Of a stretch of DNA of 64,000 nt, positions 49,061-58,202 are shown in pieces (within the stretch, counting starts at the first letter, position 1; each line of letters begins with the position of its first letter). The notes under the pieces were generated by a model that saw nothing but the letters and a program-made list of their open reading frames with translations, was not told where the DNA came from and made no database searches. The DNA comes from Streptomyces sp. Edi2 (GTDB lineage Bacteria > Actinomycetota > Actinomycetes > Streptomycetales > Streptomycetaceae): positions 8,519,501 through 8,583,500 of the forward strand of contig NZ_JBEJGX010000003.1 of assembly GCF_040253635.1 (NCBI RefSeq). The letters are read 5' to 3'. A program made the translations under genes and the position numbers.

Positions 49061-49585
49061 TCATCCGCGTTGGTTCAGTGCCCGGGTCAGCTCGCGGTTG
49101 GCGGCGCGCGCGGCTTCCAGTTCGGCTTCCCGTTCTTCTAGGCGTGGTGCCAGCTCGACATTGCGCTGTTCCAGCTGGGCGATCCTGCGGCGGTGTTCGT
49201 CGATGTCCGCCGGGGCGCCGAGTCCCGACTCGCGCCACGCCTGTTCTCCAAGGTCCTGGGACAGGCGCTTTTCCAGTTGCTGGACGCGGGCGGCGAGGCG
49301 GGCGGCGCGGGCGCCCGCGTTGGCCAGATCGGCTTGGAGGGACGCCTGGGTAGCAGCCGACCCGCGGGCAGGTGTGGGGCCGGTTGGTTGGCGGGCGGCG
49401 GCGTGCAGTTCTTCCAGGAGGTCGCGGTGGCGGTAGAGGAAGGTGCGGTCGACGCGCGCGGTACGGGCGATGGCTGAGGCGGTCAGTGAGGTGCCGTCGC
49501 GGGTGGCGCTGGCCAGGGCGGTGCGCACGCGCTGGCGGCGCCGTTCGGTGTCCTGGTGGCGGCCGTCGTTCATGGGCGTGGTCAC
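49061..49585 (-). CDS. DUF6262/TnpC-like transposition accessory protein
   Basis: 174 residues from GTG 49585. RRQRVRTALASATRDGTSLT, then ASAIARTARVDRTFLYRHRD and LLEELHAAAR, form an N-terminal HTH, followed by a long coiled coil (about 85-170, with ARVQQLEKRL and RRIAQLEQRNVEL). This is the DUF6262 family encoded third in Tn554-type transposons, where TnpC influences transposition orientation or efficiency. It appears intact although tnpA and tnpB are not. The GTGA at its start suggests it once overlapped the tnpB stop. Confidence 0.8.
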   Translation of the reverse strand: MTTPMNDGRHQDTERRRQRVRTALASATRDGTSLTASAIARTARVDRTFLYRHRDLLEELHAAARQPTGPTPARGSAATQASLQADLANAGARAARLAARVQQLEKRLSQDLGEQAWRESGLGAPADIDEHRRRIAQLEQRNVELAPRLEEREAELEAARAANRELTRALNQRG

Positions 49586-49587
49586 AG

Positions 49588-50177
49588 CGGGTTCCTCGTC
49601 GGTCGGACGTCGGGCGGGGCTGTCCGACGCGGGGCATGCCGAGCGGGACGGTGCGGCTGCGGCGCACGAGGCCGACGGCCTGCTCGATCTGGGCGCGGTC
49701 TTCGGGGGTGAGGTCGTCGAGGTCGGTCTTGACCCGGTCGATGAGGCGGCGGATGCGCTGGATCTCCTCTTCGGCCGGCATGGCCTGGGCTCGCGCCCAG
49801 TCGTCGGCCTCGAACGCGGACATCAGGCGTTCGCGGCTGCGGAGCAGGTCGGCGAGGTGGGCCTGGAGGTCGGGGAGGTAGGAGACGTCGGTGGAGAAGT
49901 GCTCGCAGCCCAGGCAGCGGAACCGCAGGGGGCAGGCGTGGCCACCGGCGGCGACGTTGGAGGGTTCGCGGCAGACGCCGTAGGGCGTGGCGACCTCGCC
50001 GATCGAGCGGCGGACGTGCTCGGAGTCGAGCAGGCTCTTCGCGGCGCGCCAGACCCGGTTGCCGTGGCGGTCGAACTGCAGGGCGGTGACGCGGTCGACG
50101 GCTTCGCGGCGTCGTTCGGTGTTGACTAATGGTGGAGTCGGGTATTGGAACCGTCGGAATGCCTCAGCCACTGCGGC
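49588..50177 (-). pseudogene. tnpB, 3' part beyond the inserted element
   Basis: The frame resumes AVAEAFRRFQYPTPPLVNTE and continues YGVCREPSNVAAGGHACPLR with RCLGCEHFSTDVSYLPDLQ, a Cys cluster (C-x5-C-x2-C) typical of the end of Tn554-type TnpB. Near 49620 the expected stop overlapping tnpC (CTGTGACC) is in another frame, so a one-base lesion lets the reading run on into tnpC. Confidence 0.75.
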
Positions 50178-50210
50178 CCCAATTAGCACCGGCCCGGCCG
50201 TCGAATCGCC

Positions 50211-50435
50211 TCACTTGGTGCCGAACATGAGGACGTCTCCGGGTTGGCAGTGGAGCTCGCGGCAGATCGCGCTGAGGGTGCTGAAACGGATCGCCTTGGC
50301 GCGGTCGTTCTTGAGAATGGATAGGTTCGCAACCGTCACTCCGACACGTTCGGCGAGTTCGGCGAGGGTCATGCCGTGGTCGGCCAGTAGCCGGTCGAGG
50401 TGGCAGTGGATCTCGTGCGGGTCCTCCGGTGGCAT
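50211..50435 (-). CDS. small XRE/YozG-type HTH regulator
   Basis: 74 residues from ATG 50435, which overlaps the DUF2975 stop by one base (TGATG). HLDRLLADHGMTLAELAERV, then GVTVANLSILKNDRAKAIRF and LSAICRELHCQPGDVL, are a full XRE domain and almost the whole protein, as in YozG. Such proteins are always paired with a DUF2975 membrane protein. It probably represses its own operon through the palindrome at 51072-51114. It is the last gene before the left end of the element. Confidence 0.88.
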   Translation of the reverse strand: MPPEDPHEIHCHLDRLLADHGMTLAELAERVGVTVANLSILKNDRAKAIRFSTLSAICRELHCQPGDVLMFGTK

Positions 50436-51049
50436 CAGACCAGGCCCTCCGTGTCCTCTCGCAGTCGAGCACCCCGGCGGAACGCCGCTGCCGCAGCTGC
50501 GGTCAGCAAGGCCCCGAACTCCGCCGCTGTGTTCATGGCGTAGGGAGTGTGGACAGCCTGCTCCACCGGCGTGCCGTCGATCAGGAGGTTCGTCGTCAGG
50601 ATGTCCAGGGCCGGAGGGAGTATGCCGATCAGGAGGAGGGCTCCGGCGATGACGAGCAGGCGGCGGGTGTTCCGCGGGAGGAAGAAGTCCCCCGCGTGGA
50701 ATGTGCGGGCTATGAGGAGGACAACGTAGAAGATCACGATCAGCAGGACCGCGCCGGTCAGGTTGGGCAGGGTCAACAGCAGTCGATCGACGAGCCCCGG
50801 GTCGTGGAAGACCAGGTTGGCCTGGCCGGTCCCGCGCAGCGTCACCGGCCCGGTGGCAGTGGCGCTGGGCACAGACGCGGCAGCGTCGATACTGACCTTG
50901 CGGGTGTCGATCATGGACGGGAAGGGCCCGACCACCCCGAGGATCGGGAACACGACCTTGATCAGGCCCACCAGCAGCAGCCCCAACCCCACGGCCATCT
51001 CCAGCACATGATTGTTGGCCCGCACCCACCAAGGCGACGTTTCAGACAT
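50435..51049 (-). CDS. DUF2975-type membrane protein
   Basis: 204 residues with four hydrophobic helices (VLEMAVGLGLLLVGLIKVVF, LTGAVLLIVIFYVVLLIA, LLVIAGALLLIGILPPAL and FGALLTAAAAAAFRRG). The conserved LLLIGILPPALDI near helix 3 and the coupled XRE gene define the DUF2975/YozG pair. Its role is unknown; here it travels as cargo of the element. An A/T-rich palindrome precedes it. Confidence 0.8.
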   Translation of the reverse strand: MSETSPWWVRANNHVLEMAVGLGLLLVGLIKVVFPILGVVGPFPSMIDTRKVSIDAAASVPSATATGPVTLRGTGQANLVFHDPGLVDRLLLTLPNLTGAVLLIVIFYVVLLIARTFHAGDFFLPRNTRRLLVIAGALLLIGILPPALDILTTNLLIDGTPVEQAVHTPYAMNTAAEFGALLTAAAAAAFRRGARLREDTEGLV

Positions 51050-51071
51050 GAGGATTCCCCTTGCTCGAACG

Positions 51072-51114
51072 GCTCCATATCGTTATTCGATGCTATCGAT
51101 AAACGATATGGAGC
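51072..51114. promoter_or_regulatory. long A/T-rich palindrome, operator of the DUF2975/XRE operon
   Basis: GCTCCATATCGTTATTCGAT (51072-51091) matches the reverse complement of 51095-51114 at 18 of 20 positions, with three bases between. It lies 23 bases upstream of the DUF2975 start. ATATCGTT/AACGATAT and TATCGATA boxes are of the type expected for XRE repressors. Confidence 0.7.
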
Positions 51115-51167
51115 TGTCAAGGTGGGCGCGATATCTCGACGGGGTCCTTGGCGAACGCCCTGGAGAG

Positions 51168-53591
51168 TCATGATCGGACGGGATCCTCGCGCGGGCGTTG
51201 ACTGACGTCGGCTGCGTAGGCGGCCCAGTCGCCTGCTGAGAGACGCTGCCAGGCGACGGCCACTTCGATGTGGAGGCCCAGGGTGCGGGCCAGGAGCGCG
51301 GCCGGGAGCTCGGTGGCGAGTTGGAAGAGTGCGGTGCTGCGGTCCTGGTTGGGGCGGATCCCGAGCTGATTGAGCCGATTCGTCAGTTGGGTGGTGCTGA
51401 TCGGGCGGCCGGGCTGACCACCAGGGAAGAGCCACGGAGACGCGGTCAGGGCTCCGATGGTTGCGTGCCCTTTGCGGTTCGCGGCGACGTGTCGGGCCAG
51501 GGTGGCGACAGGCTCGGGGAGGTGGATGGGGGCCTGGCCGAGGTGAAGACGTACTTCCTGGGCGCCGACTTCGACGTCCTCGGTGGTGAGGCGGCTGATG
51601 GCTGCCGGTCCCTGGGCGTAGAGGAGAAGGAGGAGGCCGGCGAGGCGGTCCTCCGGTTTGAGGGTGTCGTCGTGGAGGAGACGGCGTGCGATATGCCAGC
51701 GATGTTCGTCATCGAGCGGTTGGGTGGGGCCGTTCCAGCGGATGGCGGGGACATGGACTGCGGTGAGCTTGTTGGTGCGGGCCCAGCGGATGAAGTGCCC
51801 CGCGTGGTAGCGGTGGGTTGCCGAGTCGTCGGTGAGCCACCGCTCAAGGTCCACTTGCTGGCAAGTCTCCAATGTGAGCTCGGCAGCCGCCAGCCAGTTG
51901 AGGAAGGCTATGGCTGCTCTGGTCCGCTGACGTGCGGAAATGAACTGCTGCGAAGTGAGGGGCTTGCCAGCGTTCCGTCGTCGGAGTCGCCGGACGAGGT
52001 GCCAGATCGCGTAACGATGCAGGATTTTGCGGTGCTCGGGGTCTTGCGGGGATGTGAGAAGGCTGGTCAGGAGGCGTTCGAGGCGGGCCATGTACTCGTC
52101 CCGTTGAGGCAGGGCGCCGACGCTCACGAGAACTTGCCGGAGGTGGGCGAGGGGCGGGCTGTCGGGTAGCTCGTCGAGGGCCTCGTGTGTCAGTGCCCGG
52201 CGCCCGGCTGCGAGGTCGGCAAGGACCGGAGAGACGGACGGCTTGTTCAGCCAGCGCCTGGCCGTGATGGGATGCTCGGTCGTGGCGATGTTGTTCCGGA
52301 GGGCTTCAAGGCCGGGGTGATGGACCTCGGACGGCGGGCCGAGCAGTTCGTTGAGGCGTCGGTTGATCAGGCAGCGGGCGCACTGGCCGGGGTGCGGGTA
52401 GTCGGGATCAGTGCAGGTGGGGCAGATGTGCCAGATCTCGGAAGGCGTGCAGGCCGCGCAGACGGGCTGGTCGAGGGTGCCGGAAACGATGGGTGCGGCA
52501 TTTCCGCATGCCGAGCACGGCGCTGAACGGCGCTGACAGTTCGGACACCACGGTCGGCCTGTGGCGCGGGAGATGCCGCAGGGCTTCTCCTGACGGCAGA
52601 TGCTGCAGGTCGTGGTGCGGAGGGAGGGGCAGCTCGGGCAGAGCGGTCCGTCCGGCGTGCGGGTGCTCACGACCTTTCGCCTGCCGCAGCTGATGCAAGT
52701 CTCCAGGTTGGCGGGGTCGTTGACCAGGCAGTTCGGACACAGCGGCCGACCGTGGTCGTCGCGGGTGGCCGGTTCGCGTCGGGTGCCGCAGCGTGAACAC
52801 TCTTCGATGCGGGACTTGGCGATGCAGTTGCGGCAGACCCGCTGGCCGTCGAGGGGCTTGCTGATGCGTACGGCTCTGTGACAGCGAGGGCAGGCGGGAC
52901 GGGTGATCCCGGCGACTCCGGCATCGATGAGCCGGTCGATCAGCCGCAGGATTACGGGGAACGGCGCGAGGTGTCCATTGCCGGTCAACAGCGAGGGGTC
53001 GGCTTCCAGAGCCCACGCGATCTTCTGCTGGTTGGCGGGCCGCGGTGCCGAGCGGCGGACCACGTCGGCAATCACATCCAGGTCGGCATGCAGATCCAGT
53101 CCAGCGATCACGGCGTGAATCACCGCCATGGGATCCCGTCCGTCGATGTCGCGACACCTCACACAGCGTGCTCTGCCGGCCCGGTCCCGTGTGGAGACGC
53201 GTCGGGTCTTCCCGCAACCGGCACAGGGTTCGAACGTCGCGGGCCCGCACACTCCGCAGTACCAGTCTTGACCACGGCGTTGGAGCGTGCGCAGGTGTTT
53301 GCCGCACTCGGCGCAGACCGGTGGCGAGGTCGCCTGGGCCCCAGCCTTGCGTAGGGCAATGAGCAGGTCACCGACGGCCCGTGGGGCCGGGGACCGGCCG
53401 TCGTTCAAGACCGCGGGGCGGCGGGCCAGCGCGGCGGCGAGCATGCGGGACTTGGCCCGCCCGCCGCCGACCGTGGTAATTACGGCTCGGATCGTCTCGG
53501 GCCCGAGTCCCTTCTCAACTCGCATGATCAGGTCAGTGGCCAGGCCGATGGGGTCGGTGACAGCACGACCGTCATGATCTGGGGTGGTCAT
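51168..53591 (-). CDS. 807-residue zinc-ribbon protein with degenerate tyrosine-recombinase domain
   Basis: Residues about 95-420 hold roughly eight Cys4 knuckles (for example CAECGKHL, CAGCGKTRR, CSRCGTRR, CISCGRRK, CSICRQEKPC, CSACGN, CPTCTDPDYP). Residues about 530-800 look like a core-binding plus catalytic recombinase domain (ARQRTRAAIAFLNWLAAAEL, then LAGLLLLLYAQGPAAISRL and RPISTTQLTNRLNQLGI). The H-x-x-R box is absent and the first Arg context is altered, so strand cleavage is unlikely. It starts inside the end of the HTH gene (ATGA, 53588-53591). It probably helps the integrase recognise DNA; the function is inferred. Confidence 0.75.
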   Translation of the reverse strand: MTTPDHDGRAVTDPIGLATDLIMRVEKGLGPETIRAVITTVGGGRAKSRMLAAALARRPAVLNDGRSPAPRAVGDLLIALRKAGAQATSPPVCAECGKHLRTLQRRGQDWYCGVCGPATFEPCAGCGKTRRVSTRDRAGRARCVRCRDIDGRDPMAVIHAVIAGLDLHADLDVIADVVRRSAPRPANQQKIAWALEADPSLLTGNGHLAPFPVILRLIDRLIDAGVAGITRPACPRCHRAVRISKPLDGQRVCRNCIAKSRIEECSRCGTRREPATRDDHGRPLCPNCLVNDPANLETCISCGRRKVVSTRTPDGPLCPSCPSLRTTTCSICRQEKPCGISRATGRPWCPNCQRRSAPCSACGNAAPIVSGTLDQPVCAACTPSEIWHICPTCTDPDYPHPGQCARCLINRRLNELLGPPSEVHHPGLEALRNNIATTEHPITARRWLNKPSVSPVLADLAAGRRALTHEALDELPDSPPLAHLRQVLVSVGALPQRDEYMARLERLLTSLLTSPQDPEHRKILHRYAIWHLVRRLRRRNAGKPLTSQQFISARQRTRAAIAFLNWLAAAELTLETCQQVDLERWLTDDSATHRYHAGHFIRWARTNKLTAVHVPAIRWNGPTQPLDDEHRWHIARRLLHDDTLKPEDRLAGLLLLLYAQGPAAISRLTTEDVEVGAQEVRLHLGQAPIHLPEPVATLARHVAANRKGHATIGALTASPWLFPGGQPGRPISTTQLTNRLNQLGIRPNQDRSTALFQLATELPAALLARTLGLHIEVAVAWQRLSAGDWAAYAADVSQRPREDPVRS

Positions 53592-53953
53592 GAAAGGTCA
53601 ACGCCCCTGATCCTGGCTCGCTTTGGGCGCAGGCCGCCGAGCCCCTCCGCGGGTGCCTCGTTGCCGCCCGCGGCGGCCTTCCTCGGCTTCTTCACGGTGC
53701 CGGCCGCGGCGATCGGCTCGATGAGGTCGTCCATCGTGCAGTCCAGGATGTCGAGCAAGGCCATGAGGATCTTCAGGCTCAGCCGTTCGGGTCGCTCCAC
53801 GACGAGCCGGTAGACCTGGCTGGTGGACAGCGTGATGCCGCGGTCAGCCAGCGGCGGGATGAGGTCGGTGGTGGAGAACATCCCGCGGTCCGCCATGACC
53901 TTGCGCAGGTGCCAGCGGTAGTCGAGTTTGCCGTCCATCCCGTTCCTCCTCAT
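53588..53953 (-). CDS. Cro/C1-type HTH protein, middle gene of the integration trio
   Basis: 121 residues. LDYRWHLRKVMADRGMFSTT, then LIPPLADRGITLSTSQVYRL and VERPERLSLKILMALLDILD, form a C1-like HTH. A Lys/Ala/Gly-rich basic tail follows (GTVKKPRKAAAGG and LRPKRARIRG). It overlaps both neighbours by ATGA (53950-53953 and 53588-53591), so integrase, HTH and zinc-ribbon protein are made from one coupled message. It may regulate the trio or act as an excision/directionality factor. Confidence 0.8.
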   Translation of the reverse strand: MRRNGMDGKLDYRWHLRKVMADRGMFSTTDLIPPLADRGITLSTSQVYRLVVERPERLSLKILMALLDILDCTMDDLIEPIAAAGTVKKPRKAAAGGNEAPAEGLGGLRPKRARIRGVDLS

Positions 53954-55056
53954 CCCGCCCCGGCGAACGCCGGGGCCAGTGCCTTGTTCAGGGCAGTGTT
54001 CATGAAGTCGTCGCTGACGTGCGTGTAGATGGCGGTGGAGCTGTCGCAGTCATGGCCGACTTGCTGCTGGATGAACCGACGGTCGACACCGTCCTCCGTG
54101 AGGTGGGTTACGTATGAATGCCTGATCGAGTGCGGAACTAGCTCTTTTGGGAGTTTTAGAGCGTCTCGGTATGTCTCGAAGCGATCGTTGATGGAACCTG
54201 GCTGAAGGCGTCCTCCACGTTCGGTGACCCAAAGCGCCGGATGATCGGGGAACCCGAACCGTGGCCGGACGTTCTCGACATAGTCGGCGACCGCCTCGAC
54301 GGCCCAGTCCATCACCGACAGCACGTTCCGCCGCCGCGGCGGCTGGCCCTTCTTCGCCTTGCCGTAGCGGACGTTGAGCGTGCCGTACCGGCCGAACTGC
54401 GGAGCCTTCGAGTTCCGCCCGAAATCGACCAGATCCAGCTTGGACGTCTCAGTCCGGCGGAGCCCCCAGCTGTAAATGACCTTGAAGAGGGTGGCGTCGC
54501 GGTAGGCGGCAAGGGCGCCCTTGCGCTTGGACTTCACGGCGCGGTCGACCTGGTCGTCGGCGTAGTCGAGGAACCGCTGCAGCTCTTCGCGGGTGAACGG
54601 CCTCGCTTCCGGGTCGCCCTCATAGTCCTGCAGGTGGGGAAGGGTGTTCCACTCGTGGGCGATCGCCACCGGGTGGGTGCCGAAGGTTTCCTCGCAGGCC
54701 AGCCCCCATCCGTAGCGGGCGTCGATGAGGAACTCGGTGAACAGGCGAACATCGCCCTGGTAGCCGCGGATCGTGGACGGTGCCAGATGCTTCTCGCCCG
54801 TCAATGAGGCCGACCACTCGTCCATGTGACCCGGTGCCCACTGCCACGGGTAGTCGTTCGTGAACTCGAAGAACCGGCGGACCAGCCGTTCCCGGTCGTC
54901 GACCGTCTCGTCCTGAAGCCCCCGCGACTTCTGCTGAGCCCGCCAACCCCGCAGCATCGCGTCGAACATCGCGTCCTCGGGACGCAGCTGGACGACCCCG
55001 GAAACGAGCTCCAGATGAGCCGATCCAGCCAGGGCCACCTTGCGCTCATGCACCAC
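53950..55056 (-). CDS. tyrosine recombinase/integrase of the inserted element
   Basis: 368 residues from GTG 55056 (an upstream GTG codon is next to it). The N-terminal core-binding domain lies at about 35-130. Catalytic residues are present: Arg near 200 (YSWGLRRTETSKL), His and Arg near 306-309 (PHSIRHSYVTHL), His near 332 (VGHDCDSS) and Tyr near 343 (AIYTHV). It is therefore likely active. Its start is 71 bases inside the right end of the element, the usual place for an integrase next to its attachment site. CCCTCC-AGAA-GGGAGG just upstream forms a hairpin. Confidence 0.9.
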   Translation of the reverse strand: MVHERKVALAGSAHLELVSGVVQLRPEDAMFDAMLRGWRAQQKSRGLQDETVDDRERLVRRFFEFTNDYPWQWAPGHMDEWSASLTGEKHLAPSTIRGYQGDVRLFTEFLIDARYGWGLACEETFGTHPVAIAHEWNTLPHLQDYEGDPEARPFTREELQRFLDYADDQVDRAVKSKRKGALAAYRDATLFKVIYSWGLRRTETSKLDLVDFGRNSKAPQFGRYGTLNVRYGKAKKGQPPRRRNVLSVMDWAVEAVADYVENVRPRFGFPDHPALWVTERGGRLQPGSINDRFETYRDALKLPKELVPHSIRHSYVTHLTEDGVDRRFIQQQVGHDCDSSTAIYTHVSDDFMNTALNKALAPAFAGAG

Positions 55057-55124
55057 TCCAGACCCTCCCTTCTGGAGGGCAGATCATGCATCAGACGGGA
55101 TGGCGCAGGCAACTTCCCTGTTCA

Positions 55125-57174
55125 GGCGGTTAGTTCGTAGTAGCGTTGGAGTCCCTCAGTCTCTTGCCGTGAACTGGCGACCTGCGGTTTCTCTCCCGTC
55201 AGATGCAATTCCCGAGGGTTGGTGTAGTAGCCCTGGGTGGTGGTGATCAGCCGGTGGTCCATCAGCTCCTTCAGCACGTCGACGCGACGCCCGCGTCGGC
55301 GTGGCGTTGGGCGTAGCAGTGCCGGTAGGCGTAGGGGAAGATCCGCTTCTTGTCGAACGGCTCCAGTTGGGTGACGCGGGTATCTCCTTCGACGGCGATG
55401 ACCGGGACGAGGAAGTCGGGCAGCACGTCCACCCAGGTCCGGTGGGCGGAGGAGATGTCGGTGAGCGGTTTGGTCCCCTCCGGGTTGATCCTTACCCGGG
55501 GCAGGAGCTTGAGCCGGGTGGGGTCGGTGGCGGGGAAGCGTTCACGGATGCGTCGTTGCTGGCGGCGGATGGTCGCCGCGGTCTCGGCTGCGACCGGCAG
55601 GCGACGTCCGAGCCGGTATGCCTTGTGGTTGTCGTAGACAAGGACGGGTGATCCGTCGGGGTCCTGCTCCAGGCAGTTGAGGGGGAGGGTGTTGATCTCG
55701 TCCGGGCGGCGGCCGGTGTCGATCATCAGCTCGGTGGCGACGCGGGTCTCGGTGTTGCTCATCGCCTCCAGCTCATCGAGGTGGGCGCACAGCTGGCGCA
55801 TCACCTCGTCGGGCAGGCCCCGGCTGGCCTCGGTGTCTTCCGGCTCGTCGGGCATGTCTTCGGGCCAGATGGCGAAGTCGACCGGCATCCCTTCCAGGGC
55901 CTGGCCGGGGCCGGTGAGTCCGAGGGTGCGGAAGCGGAGCAGGACCCTGCGGACGAAGCGGGTGAAGGTCAGGCGCCGGACGGCGCTCAGTTCTCCGGTC
56001 GCGGTGAGGTAGCCCATGCGGTTGGAGAACGCCACGATGTCGCCGCGCGCCCACGCTGCGGGCACCGTGCCGCGGTCCTCGCGCTGGGTGCGCAGGCTCT
56101 CGGAGAGCAAGGTCATGGCGGAGATGACGGCGCGGGCGTGGTGCACGGCGTTCTTGTTCCGGCGCCGGGGCAGATCGTCGTAGACCCAGATCTTCATGGC
56201 CTCCCGCAGCGGCTCCTGCGCCAGGCTCGTGAACGGCAGGACGCCGGGGTGCCCGAAGACCGCCATGTCCCACACGTCCTTGACGCGTTCGGTCTCCGGC
56301 GTCGCATTCAGCCGGCGCAGCGCCCTCTGCCAGGCCCGAATCATCATCTCCTGCTCGCGGTTGTGGCCGTGGGCTGCTGGTTCGGTCACCTCGTTCAGCT
56401 CCTGCACCTGGTGGGTGCGCAGCCGGTCGTAGAGGGGGCGCAGGCACTCGGGCCGAGCCTTGATTCCTTCCTCGACGCGGGTCTGCAGTCCGTAGAGGAG
56501 TTAGGCGACCAGGAGGTCGGGGAGCCCGCGTAGGCTGGCCTCGCGGGTGGTGCAGCTCGCTTTGTCCGTGCGGCGCCAGCGCGCCTCGTCGAACCCGGGC
56601 GCTGCGCGGTCCCGGCGCAGGCGCCGGTAGTGGACCTTGCAGTAGGGGCCTGGGCCTGGTGGCCGGCGCGGTCGAGGTAGCACGCAGCGACCTCACACGG
56701 CCCCAGGCTCGCGTATCCGGTCACCCTCGGGTGATTGAGGAACTCCTCCCAGGTCAACGCACTCAGCGCCATGCTCTCGCGCTGGCTGCGGTGGGTGTTG
56801 CAGAGCTGGCAGGCGACGGTGTCCCGGGGCCGTTCGCAGCCCGCGACCGCGCACGGTTCCTGTACGACCCCGCGGCTTGTCAGCTTCGGTACGAGCAGGA
56901 ACTCCTCCGAGGTCAGCTCGGAGCCGCGCCACCGCTCCATGCAACCCCCGCACATCGACCGCGTCAGGACGGTGATCGTCGAAGGGCAGTCCGGCACAGG
57001 GCAGTCCGGTACGCCGATCACCGGATGCTGCCGTGGGAACGTGATCACCCGCCGCTCCCAGTCCCAGCCCAGCAAGGCGAGGAAGTCACCGTCCAGCGCG
57101 GCCAGGATCTCCTCGCGCCGTCCCTCGCTCGCCGGGCCGGCGGGCTGCGGCACCGCCTGCGCCGTCGTGAGCAT
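55125..57174 (-). pseudogene. tnpB, 5' part (Tn554-type recombinase), multiply disrupted
   Basis: It starts at ATG 57174 (one-base overlap with the tnpA stop) with zinc-finger-like CPVPDCPSTITVLTRSMC and CGGC. Lesions in order: a frameshift near 56660 (the text resumes PYCKVHYRRLRRD), a TAA at 56501-56503 between LLVA and LLYGLQTRVEEG, and a one-base loss near 55290 between HADAG and VDVLKELMDHRL. The stretch 56407-55271 is an intact 378-codon recombinase region (GRRPDEINTLPLNCLE with Arg; YAYRHCYAQRHADAG with His-x-x-Arg-like box). The element at 50178-55127 splits it after YYELTA. Confidence 0.8.
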
Positions 57175-58202
57175 CACCGGCCGCCCTCTCCACCGTCGAT
57201 ACCGCGAGGTGAGGGCACCCGCTCGACCGCTGCCCGTACCCGTCCCGGGTCGGGGAACAGGTACGGCCCCTGCGAGACCGGACTCCGGTGGCCCAGTACC
57301 GGCCTGGACTTTATCCGGCGTACCACCGGCGTCGGCGACGTTCGATGCGAACGCACGGCGGGCCATGTGTGCCCCGACCCGGCGGTCCAGTCCCGCCCGC
57401 GTGCCCAGCCGCTCCAGCAGCTCTCCGACCGCTTCCGGTGATACCGGCTCGCCCAGCGGGGCCCGGAACAAGTTCACCAGAAGGAAGTCGCTCCCGCCGC
57501 TCCCGAGCAGGCGGTGGCGCTCCTCGTAGTAGAGGTCGAACGCGCTGACCACGAGGAAGTCCAGCGGCGCCACCCAGGCATGGCGCGACTTCGACCACGC
57601 ACCGTTGGCGTTCTCCCGGCGCCGCACATGCACGTGGGCACCGGGATGGCCGCAGCCCAACCCGCGGGAGTCCGGCAGCAGATGAACGTCGCTGCGCCGC
57701 AGGCCCGCACCGGCCGCGGCCGGTAGAACAGGCCGCCGTCCTCCCCCTGCGCCTCCGCCGGCAGGTCCCGGCTGTCGGCAAGCTCGTAGATCTGCCCCAG
57801 CACCGCCCACGGCGCCTCCCTCACCGACACCGCGTACGACAGCAGGCCCCGGACCGCGACCAGAACCCGGTTGACCCGCCGCTCGCCACGGACCGGCTCG
57901 GCGCCTGGCCCCGGCTGCACCACCGGCGCCACCCCGTCCCGGGGCGCTGGCGTGTACTTCAGCCAGACGATGAACAGACCGAGGTCGCGGCCGGCCGACG
58001 CCCACTGCCGGTTCGTCGACCGGCACCAGCGGAGATACAGCGCGACGCTGCCGGCGTACGACTTCGTCGTCAGCTCCGCCCGGTCCCGTCCGAACCGAAG
58101 ATTTCGAAGCCACCGGTCAACGACCGGGACGACCTCCAGGTCGTCGTCGAGGACCGTCCAGTACCTCTGCCCGGACGGCAACACCACGGGAAATGCCCGC
58201 AT
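57174..58202 (-). pseudogene. tnpA (Tn554-type tyrosine recombinase), frameshifted and internally deleted
   Basis: It starts at ATG 58202 (MRAFPVVLPSGQRYWTVLDD) and is intact to about residue 165 (core-binding domain with LTTKSYAGSVALYLRWCRST). Near 57720 the frame changes and the segment containing the first catalytic Arg is missing. GAGLRRSDVHLLPDSRG to HMARRAFASNVADAGG (H-x-x-R box) follows in a second frame. Near 57290 another shift gives LGHRSPVSQGPYLFPDPGRV and the end. The product cannot be functional. Confidence 0.75.

Follow-up and report, generated by a model that had tools for sequence, protein, structure and literature searches.

The window analyzed here is a 64,000-nt stretch of Streptomyces sp. 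Edi2 (contig NZ_JBEJGX010000003.1, positions 8,519,501 to 8,583,500), part of a 9.8-Mb genome. It carries, on the minus strand, the tnpABC set of a Tn554-like transposon whose tnpB is split by a 5,094-bp element with five same-strand open reading frames (ORFs), one of them an intact tyrosine integrase. A first-pass annotation of the sequence had recognized a split tnpB and a block of this gene content, and tblastn and profile searches bear it out; its view that the block resembles a mobile element and sits within an older transposon, here a Tn554-like one, is supported. What it missed is the main feature: insertion at the catalytic-tyrosine codon, in many recombinases. We consider it highly probable that the element belongs to an actinobacterial family of small tyrosine-recombinase elements in which a gene trio moves a swappable passenger and mostly targets the catalytic-Tyr codons of recombinases. 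This family is apparently large and undescribed.

Boundaries and gene content of the element

The features that define the insertion are these:

50127–55220, minus strand: whole element; its ends are common to other copies, and homology to intact tnpB stops just outside
55206–55220, minus strand: right end AACCC-TCGGGAATTG, with TCGGGAATTG as right arm of the inverted repeat (shared by 22 of 23 aligned copies; genome pattern searches)
50138–50147, minus strand: left inverted-repeat arm CAATACCCGA, 9/10 complementary to the right arm and conserved among left ends
50127–50132, minus strand: left-end terminal hexamer CCATTA, proposed 6-bp spacer retained by the element (left-end census)
53950–55056, minus strand: tyrosine integrase, 368 aa, with R200, H309, R312, H335, and Y344 intact (PF00589, E = 4.7e-20)
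53588–53953, minus strand: small helix-turn-helix (HTH) protein, HTH_26, Cro/C1 type, 121 aa (PF13443, E = 2.6e-15)
51168–53591, minus strand: 807-aa protein, 16 CxxC motifs and then a predicted tyrosine-recombinase fold (AlphaFold model, PDB comparison)
55122–55220, minus strand: 32-codon tail NPRELHLTGEKPQVASSRQETEGLQRYYELTA followed by TGA, continuing the host reading frame across the junction (right-end comparison)
55221–55226, minus strand: TAC-ACC, the second Tyr codon of host TnpB and the next codon; insertion lies right after ACC (rule TAC-NNN|R)
55227–55229, minus strand: TAC, putative catalytic-tyrosine codon of host TnpB, TTQGY motif (alignment to intact TnpB)
55224–57162, minus strand: N-terminal part of host tnpB, frameshifted (tblastn pieces against S. 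longwoodensis TnpB)
49587–50126, minus strand: C-terminal part of host tnpB past the insertion, 88% identical to TnpB residues 652–829 (residues 652–711 in a second comparison)

The edges were set with intact tnpB genes and other copies of the element. Against the reference, an intact TnpB on S. longwoodensis plasmid NZ_CP107736 (L061; L-numbers are locus labels of the present analysis), tblastn homology stops at 55224, up to residue 650, and resumes at 50126 with residues 652–829. A blastn search with the two tnpB flanks gave 55224 and 50117, within a few bases of these limits. The edges proposed earlier, 50178 and 55127, therefore lie inside the insert, since both the tnpB homology breaks and the common ends of other copies fall 51 bp and 93 bp farther out; deleting that interval would retain 51 + 93 = 144 bp of element within tnpB. 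The reading frame that its removal seemed to restore is a coincidence, GAA-CTA-ACC-GCC-TGA being the end of the element's own 32-codon stretch. Nor is the supposed core of about 3 bp present at the true edges, where host TAC-TAC-ACC adjoins AACCCTCGGG and CCATTA adjoins host GTC. The distance from the integrase start codon to the right end is 164 bp rather than 71 bases, and tnpB is not otherwise intact, since it bears older frameshifts, as does host tnpA.

Comparison among copies, as had been proposed, gave consistent boundaries, at the equivalents of 50127 and 55220. Upstream of the integrase, 22 of 23 aligned copies begin with R-ACCCTCGGGAATTGCATC, some with one or two substitutions, and only L017 lacks this start; left ends have ...TTCCAATACCCGACTCCACCATTA in common. 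The 10-bp inverted repeat (CAATACCCGA / TCGGGAATTG) sits 11 bp in from the left edge and 5 bp in from the right, a 6-bp difference that corresponds to CCATTA. At 49 left ends located by a pattern that omits the hexamer, CCATTA occurs in 37, a version with one or two changes in 10, and one with three or four changes in 2 (L009 and L043); target-like TACNNN occurs in 0 of the 49. Twenty copies delimited by both end patterns span 4,048–6,326 bp, and at least one of these (L011) has a further insertion in its integrase.

For several hosts, alignment to intact homologues shows no residue gained or lost. The two pieces of the L029 target abut at 668|669 of L147 and 596|597 of L146, those of L012 at 534|535 of L148, and those of L058 at 651|652 of TnpB. 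For L008 and L062, the TnpB alignment of the upstream piece stops one residue earlier. Judged from these junction sequences, insertion is residue-perfect and lacks a target duplication.

The integrase has the R...HxxR...H/W...Y signature of tyrosine recombinases: R, H, R, and H are conserved in 64/64 alignment rows and Y344 in 63/64 (some rows are duplicates), and its PDB relatives are XerA/XerD. The 807-aa protein, with 1,447 relatives among 8,000 candidates scored, matched no Pfam, NCBIfam, or PADLOC family at E ≤ 0.01. It has Trp781 at the expected catalytic-Tyr position and lacks the box-I Arg (residue census, 39 rows). On the structural model, this zinc-ribbon protein probably ends in a dead recombinase fold.

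Two further genes and a repeat complete the insert:

50435–51049, minus strand: passenger 1, DUF2975-like membrane protein, 204 aa (PF11188, E = 1.6e-4, below the curated cut-off)
50211–50435, minus strand: passenger 2, HTH_26 regulator, 74 aa (PF13443, E = 5.6e-21)
51069–51117, no strand assigned: 23-bp inverted repeat separating the trio from the passenger pair (arms 87% complementary and 3 nt apart)

The repeat is likely an operator of the DUF2975/HTH pair or a terminator of the trio. Other copies carry GNAT, SDR, DUF3626, carbon–nitrogen hydrolase, HAD, or MFS passengers. From this comparison of sequences, the conserved module is the integrase, the HTH protein, and the zinc-ribbon protein, with a variable passenger; the five-gene block described earlier stands as a set of genes and resolves into that three-gene module plus a passenger pair.

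The remaining host genes flank this insert:

49061–49585, minus strand: host tnpC (DUF6262; PF19776, tblastn against TnpC)
57183–58202, minus strand: host tnpA, frameshifted pieces (tblastn against TnpA)

Because the transposon carries older frameshifts, the window copy probably landed, or stayed, in a dying host. Elsewhere in the same genome, a decayed second copy (L002, G000:C3 at ~445–448 kb) has a left end followed by a different long-recombinase C-terminal part and retains only a fragment of the 807-aa gene. Pieces of a distant trio relative lie at ~1.018–1.021 Mb of the same contig (L003; integrase 57%, 807-aa protein 32–36%).

The target codon and its range

Right ends were collected from 50 genome loci, genome sets of 394 and 392, plasmids, and one viral contig; 23 genomes of the first set and 28 of the second matched the end pattern, some common to both. 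This yielded 74 distinct right ends, 72 of them with readable flanks (L018 is masked and L092 sits at a contig edge). Nine duplicates, the own-genome repeats L085, L119, and L126, and loci L124, L125, and L127–L135 were dropped beforehand. These last loci came from a phylum-wide search in which 12 of 396 genomes matched, all but the window's own with one mismatch, and in which a backwards control likewise matched in a few genomes. Two spurious seven-mismatch matches (L051 and the window), three matches without a locus, and L057, which has no recognizable right end, were also left out.

A TAC or TAT codon stands exactly 3 nt before the junction at 65 of the 72 readable right ends, and 8 of 9 further plasmid copies obey the same rule. 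At 55 of the 72, the codon belongs to a recombinase catalytic-Tyr motif (in some TnpBs, it is the neighboring codon); this count comprises 54 ends that pass the motif test [GDKE]H-x(6-10)-Y-x, out of 65 TA-type ends with full flanks (L083 among them), plus L010, whose short flank was scored recombinase-like by eye. With targets above 80% identity merged, 45 of 56 distinct TA-type targets match the motif. As a control, we applied the motif test and an open-frame requirement to TAYNNNR sites in 1.12 Mb of the collected loci: 324 of 8,941 (3.6%) pass, and 28 of 480 (5.8%) pass when ACN at −15 is also required. Chance would thus account for about 4–6%. This control should be conservative because the control DNA is rich in mobile genes.

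Across an alignment of 59 host ORFs of at least 90 codons, the tyrosine is the sole invariant column, and 41 of the 59 match PF00589 at E ≤ 0.001. Upstream, ACN is found at −18 or −15 in 47/57 targets. The TnpB-type motif, TTxxYY, has two successive TAC codons, and insertion falls past the first in L008, L062, and L090 (TAC-TAC|) and past the second in the window, L058, L088, L108, and L112 (TAC-TAC-NNN|); both positions satisfy TAC-NNN|R. XerC/D-type TTxxY spacing points to the first Tyr as the catalytic one. On this body of sequences, the target form is TAC-NNN|R, which in most cases falls on the catalytic-Tyr codon of another recombinase or on the codon after it.

The interrupted genes are highly diverse: Tn554-type TnpB is among them, as are XerC/D-like enzymes, a phage-type integrase, and integrases of the family itself or of its cousins. 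Such own or cousin integrases are targeted in L023, L082, L142, and L145 by measured identity (81%, 90%, 53%, and 38%, respectively) and in L010, L069, L087, and L100 by motif alone. In L082 (1500–2700), copies are nested, with a second right end in the first copy's integrase at its catalytic tyrosine. In L142 (1985–10101), a copy sits in a cousin trio's integrase, and the HTH gene of that cousin follows past the insert together with an 800-aa relative at 28% identity. Here one trio has apparently invaded another, a case known from its right side, its left end not having been located.

Some targets are not recombinases. Pfam identifies 2'-5' RNA-ligase targets, interrupted at HxTLxY-like segments, in L051, L071, L106, and L099 (E 0.0016), and an ISL3 transposase in L072; the L065 target, by its motif, is presumably another ISL3 transposase. 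L051, L071, L099, L106, and L113 make up one side of a branch with support 100/97, a sub-clade in which four of five targets are 2'-5' RNA-ligase (2H phosphoesterase) genes and that of L113 is of unclear identity. TnpB and own-family targets (six rows each) require four label changes each on the tree, a number also reached by 73 and 89 of 500 shuffles, respectively.

Host tail, proposed mechanism, and alternatives

The host frame remains open through the tyrosine into the element, with a tail of exactly 32 codons at 55 of 74 right ends. Over tail codons 9–32, the median ratio of nonsynonymous to synonymous substitution rates (dN/dS) is 0.65 in frame versus 1.04 and 1.26 in the other frames (47 nonredundant 32-codon ends; the pairs are not independent), which amounts to modest sequence evidence that the tail is translated. 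Four intact homologues (L146, L147, L148, and TnpB of L061) have 73 to 189 native residues beyond the junction. XerA lacking the helix after its tyrosine is described as still cleaving while failing to recombine (PMC3646895). By that behavior, a swapped tail could, as a hypothesis by analogy, disable or retune the host enzyme. A bolder version, which we regard as a tentative minority possibility, makes the element a specialized recombinase parasite: it would read catalytic-Tyr-motif DNA and swap the C-terminal regulatory helix for its tail, making a cleavage-competent but recombination-defective (or element-controlled) host enzyme and immobilizing its own vehicle. In practice, some actinobacterial recombinases annotated as complete (e.g., L060, L139, and L142) end in the element's tail and are interrupted genes.

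The proposed mechanism runs as follows. The integrase would excise a circle that retains the element's own terminal hexamer CCATTA, so that the predicted circle junction links CTCCACCATTA to RACCCTCGGG and does not carry TACNNN. The zinc-ribbon/dead-recombinase protein, possibly aided by the HTH protein, would read ~30 bp of DNA encoding a conserved recombinase motif, LGH-x-x-x-x-TT-x-x-Y in high-GC codons, with exchange of one strand at one point immediately 3' of TACNNN. The interrupted recombinase would keep its tyrosine, lose its C-terminus, and often gain the 32-residue element-encoded tail. It would likely be disabled or altered, and the element would spread by riding plasmids and transposons.

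The left ends argue for a one-sided, one-strand exchange because they keep the element's own hexamer and never show TACNNN; a two-strand 6-bp exchange resolved at random would put host TACNNN on the left of roughly every second copy. Strand-biased circularizing elements (SEs; PMC10214605) exchange one strand at one point, and such a reaction fits these sequences, except that here the element retains its own spacer. End geometry and the left hexamer agree with a one-strand, 6-bp model, an agreement that concerns products alone and includes no donor-derived footprint.

That the family is mobile we infer from its distribution among sequences. Among 47 copies, 138 pairs have integrases that are at least 93% identical, and in 110 of these pairs the two targets share less than 35% identity. 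L136 (6453–7567) is a copy inserted in a phage-type integrase of an IMG/VR viral contig. Its own integrase hardly differs from the one in L137, a Rhodococcus plasmid copy whose target we take from its motif to be an IS3-like transposase. In L089/L150 (8095–8097), the right end of a complete copy directly abuts another left end (CCATTA|AACCC), the junction expected of a circle or tandem; no second trio was found upstream within the 8 kb read.

Several points weigh against the reading of a mobile family aimed at catalytic-tyrosine codons. The TAC/TAT rule is broken by L067, L094, L097, L102, L122, L083 (TAG), and L089 (which abuts a left end), as well as by plasmid copy L140. The regular expression fails to recognize 11 of the 56 distinct TA-type targets as recombinase-like (2'-5' RNA-ligase genes, ISL3 transposases, and unclear ones), and plasmid copy L137 adds its IS3-like transposase; what the rule reads is therefore DNA rather than recombinases themselves. 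Neither an excised circle nor transposition was observed, nor was an empty site in the same strain. The coding signal of the tail is modest and was measured only in ends preselected for an open 32-codon frame, and its first ten codons are the least variable at third positions, which fits a DNA site over a protein. For the 807-aa protein, model confidence is lowest (predicted local distance difference test, pLDDT, about 53–66) right at the would-be catalytic positions. The host transposon in the window was already decaying, so this copy bears on no effect of insertion there.

Among the alternatives, near-random insertion with a weak TAC preference, its recombinase matches being survivors because plasmid and transposon recombinases are dispensable, is the least improbable, though still unlikely. 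Targets are indeed mostly mobile-element genes and many copies are on plasmids, but dispensability leaves the repeated use of the same codon unexplained: 45 of 56 targets match against the 4–6% expected, although TAYNNNR sites are common (470 in the window, about 67,000 scaled to 9.1 Mb). The 2H-targeting sub-clade (4/5, support 100/97) likewise points to read-out specificity. In a very unlikely alternative, resemblance to the element's own integrase gene, and not a DNA-binding protein, directs target choice; it would suit the insertions in own or cousin integrases, but RNA-ligase and ISL3 targets have only ACN/TAC-type bases in common with that gene, in a comparison that did not look for an RNA or pairing segment.

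Less credible again is an immobile trio, an old built-in part of split recombinase loci co-inherited with them. Some relatives, such as L098 and L115, do have the same host gene plus element, but near-identical integrases sit in unrelated target genes of different genomes, and L136 and L137, with almost no integrase divergence, are in a phage-type integrase and an IS3-like transposase. Uninterrupted homologues also exist, among them related tnpB genes without the insert, so its vertical inheritance with tnpB, which the first-pass annotation had named as a possible refutation, is not what was found. The original delimitation, a 4,950-bp element at 50178–55127 with a core of about 3 bp, retains a locally open frame after removal in its favor and is refuted by the compared copies; we give it virtually no credence. 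Insertion peculiar to Tn554 tnpB was rejected, as other copies occupy many other targets.

Relation to known elements

By the account in PMC10214605, SEs resemble the family in tyrosine-recombinase transposition, a dead recombinase-fold partner (Tfp in SEs), imperfect terminal inverted repeats, a 6-bp spacer, and strand bias. They differ, by the same account, in having two active recombinases plus Tfp and Srap, in carrying the previous host's 6 bp as a footprint, and in being reported only in Gammaproteobacteria. The present family has one recombinase with catalytic residues, an HTH protein, a zinc-ribbon protein with a probable dead recombinase fold, a near-constant CCATTA, and actinobacterial hosts. 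With one Phage_integrase protein among five ORFs, it lacks the SE set intA-tfp-intB-srap and is set apart by gene content.

Tn554-like transposons are also tyrosine-recombinase transposons, and actinobacterial ones host the window copy; as described in PMC3414803, they carry a TnpABC set, whereas the inserted element has neither a TnpB-like long catalytic recombinase nor TnpC/DUF6262. The combination of TnpA, long TnpB, and TnpC is absent from it, DUF6262 having matched only host tnpC. Tn554 itself, in a finding attributed to Murphy and Lofdahl (1984), reportedly likewise makes no target duplication. GInts share a multigene recombinase operon at one end, variable cargo, and insertions that can alter the target C-terminus (PMC5385486), with one recombinase-like protein lacking the catalytic motif (PMC10214605); on the details given in the former source, they differ by a four-gene ginABCD set, 10–11-nt imperfect direct repeats, and other targets. 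Judged by gene content, ginABCD with its three recombinase-type proteins is not present here. RIT elements have three adjacent overlapping genes and are known inside a transposase gene and a radC gene, but PMC3414803 describes three catalytic-motif recombinases and inverted repeats of ~28–34 bp, against one such recombinase and a 10-bp repeat here; the single Phage_integrase protein has an 807-aa partner with Trp at the expected Tyr.

The element does not qualify as a Gamma-mobile-trio (GMT), its score for the GmtY recombinase falling far short (NCBIfam recomb_GmtY, 26 bits against a cut-off of 340). Profile searches found no relaxase family among the five ORFs, as integrative mobilizable or integrative conjugative elements (IME/ICE) would have; an unrecognized Xis is possible. 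Homing introns and inteins also settle in DNA for conserved active-site residues of host genes, and they splice out; here the coding sequence is cut past the Tyr codon and often given a new tail. Archaeal integrases split at their own attachment site were considered and set aside, since PMC5495485 describes cuts in the integrase of the element itself rather than in that of a third party. PMC8138268, in the portion consulted, contributes classification only. As the first-pass annotation had suspected, family libraries and the open-access literature searched gave no name for this gene set, and that literature held no description of an element in integrase genes or of a tyrosine-codon target.

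Integrating elements are best known for using tRNA genes or the ends of housekeeping genes as sites. A whole family directed at the active-site codon of recombinases of competitors and of its own relatives is a compact case of mobile-element conflict, and it poses a testable recognition problem: how a protein set finds LGH...TT..Y DNA in unrelated genes. It may offer a natural means of silencing or trapping transposons and prophages and a family for studying one-strand recombination outside Gammaproteobacteria. By gene content, it fits none of SE, GInt, RIT, or Tn554 and would operate like an SE or Tn554-like element; what is new relative to known tyrosine-recombinase transposons is the gene set, the hosts, the retained spacer, and above all the target.

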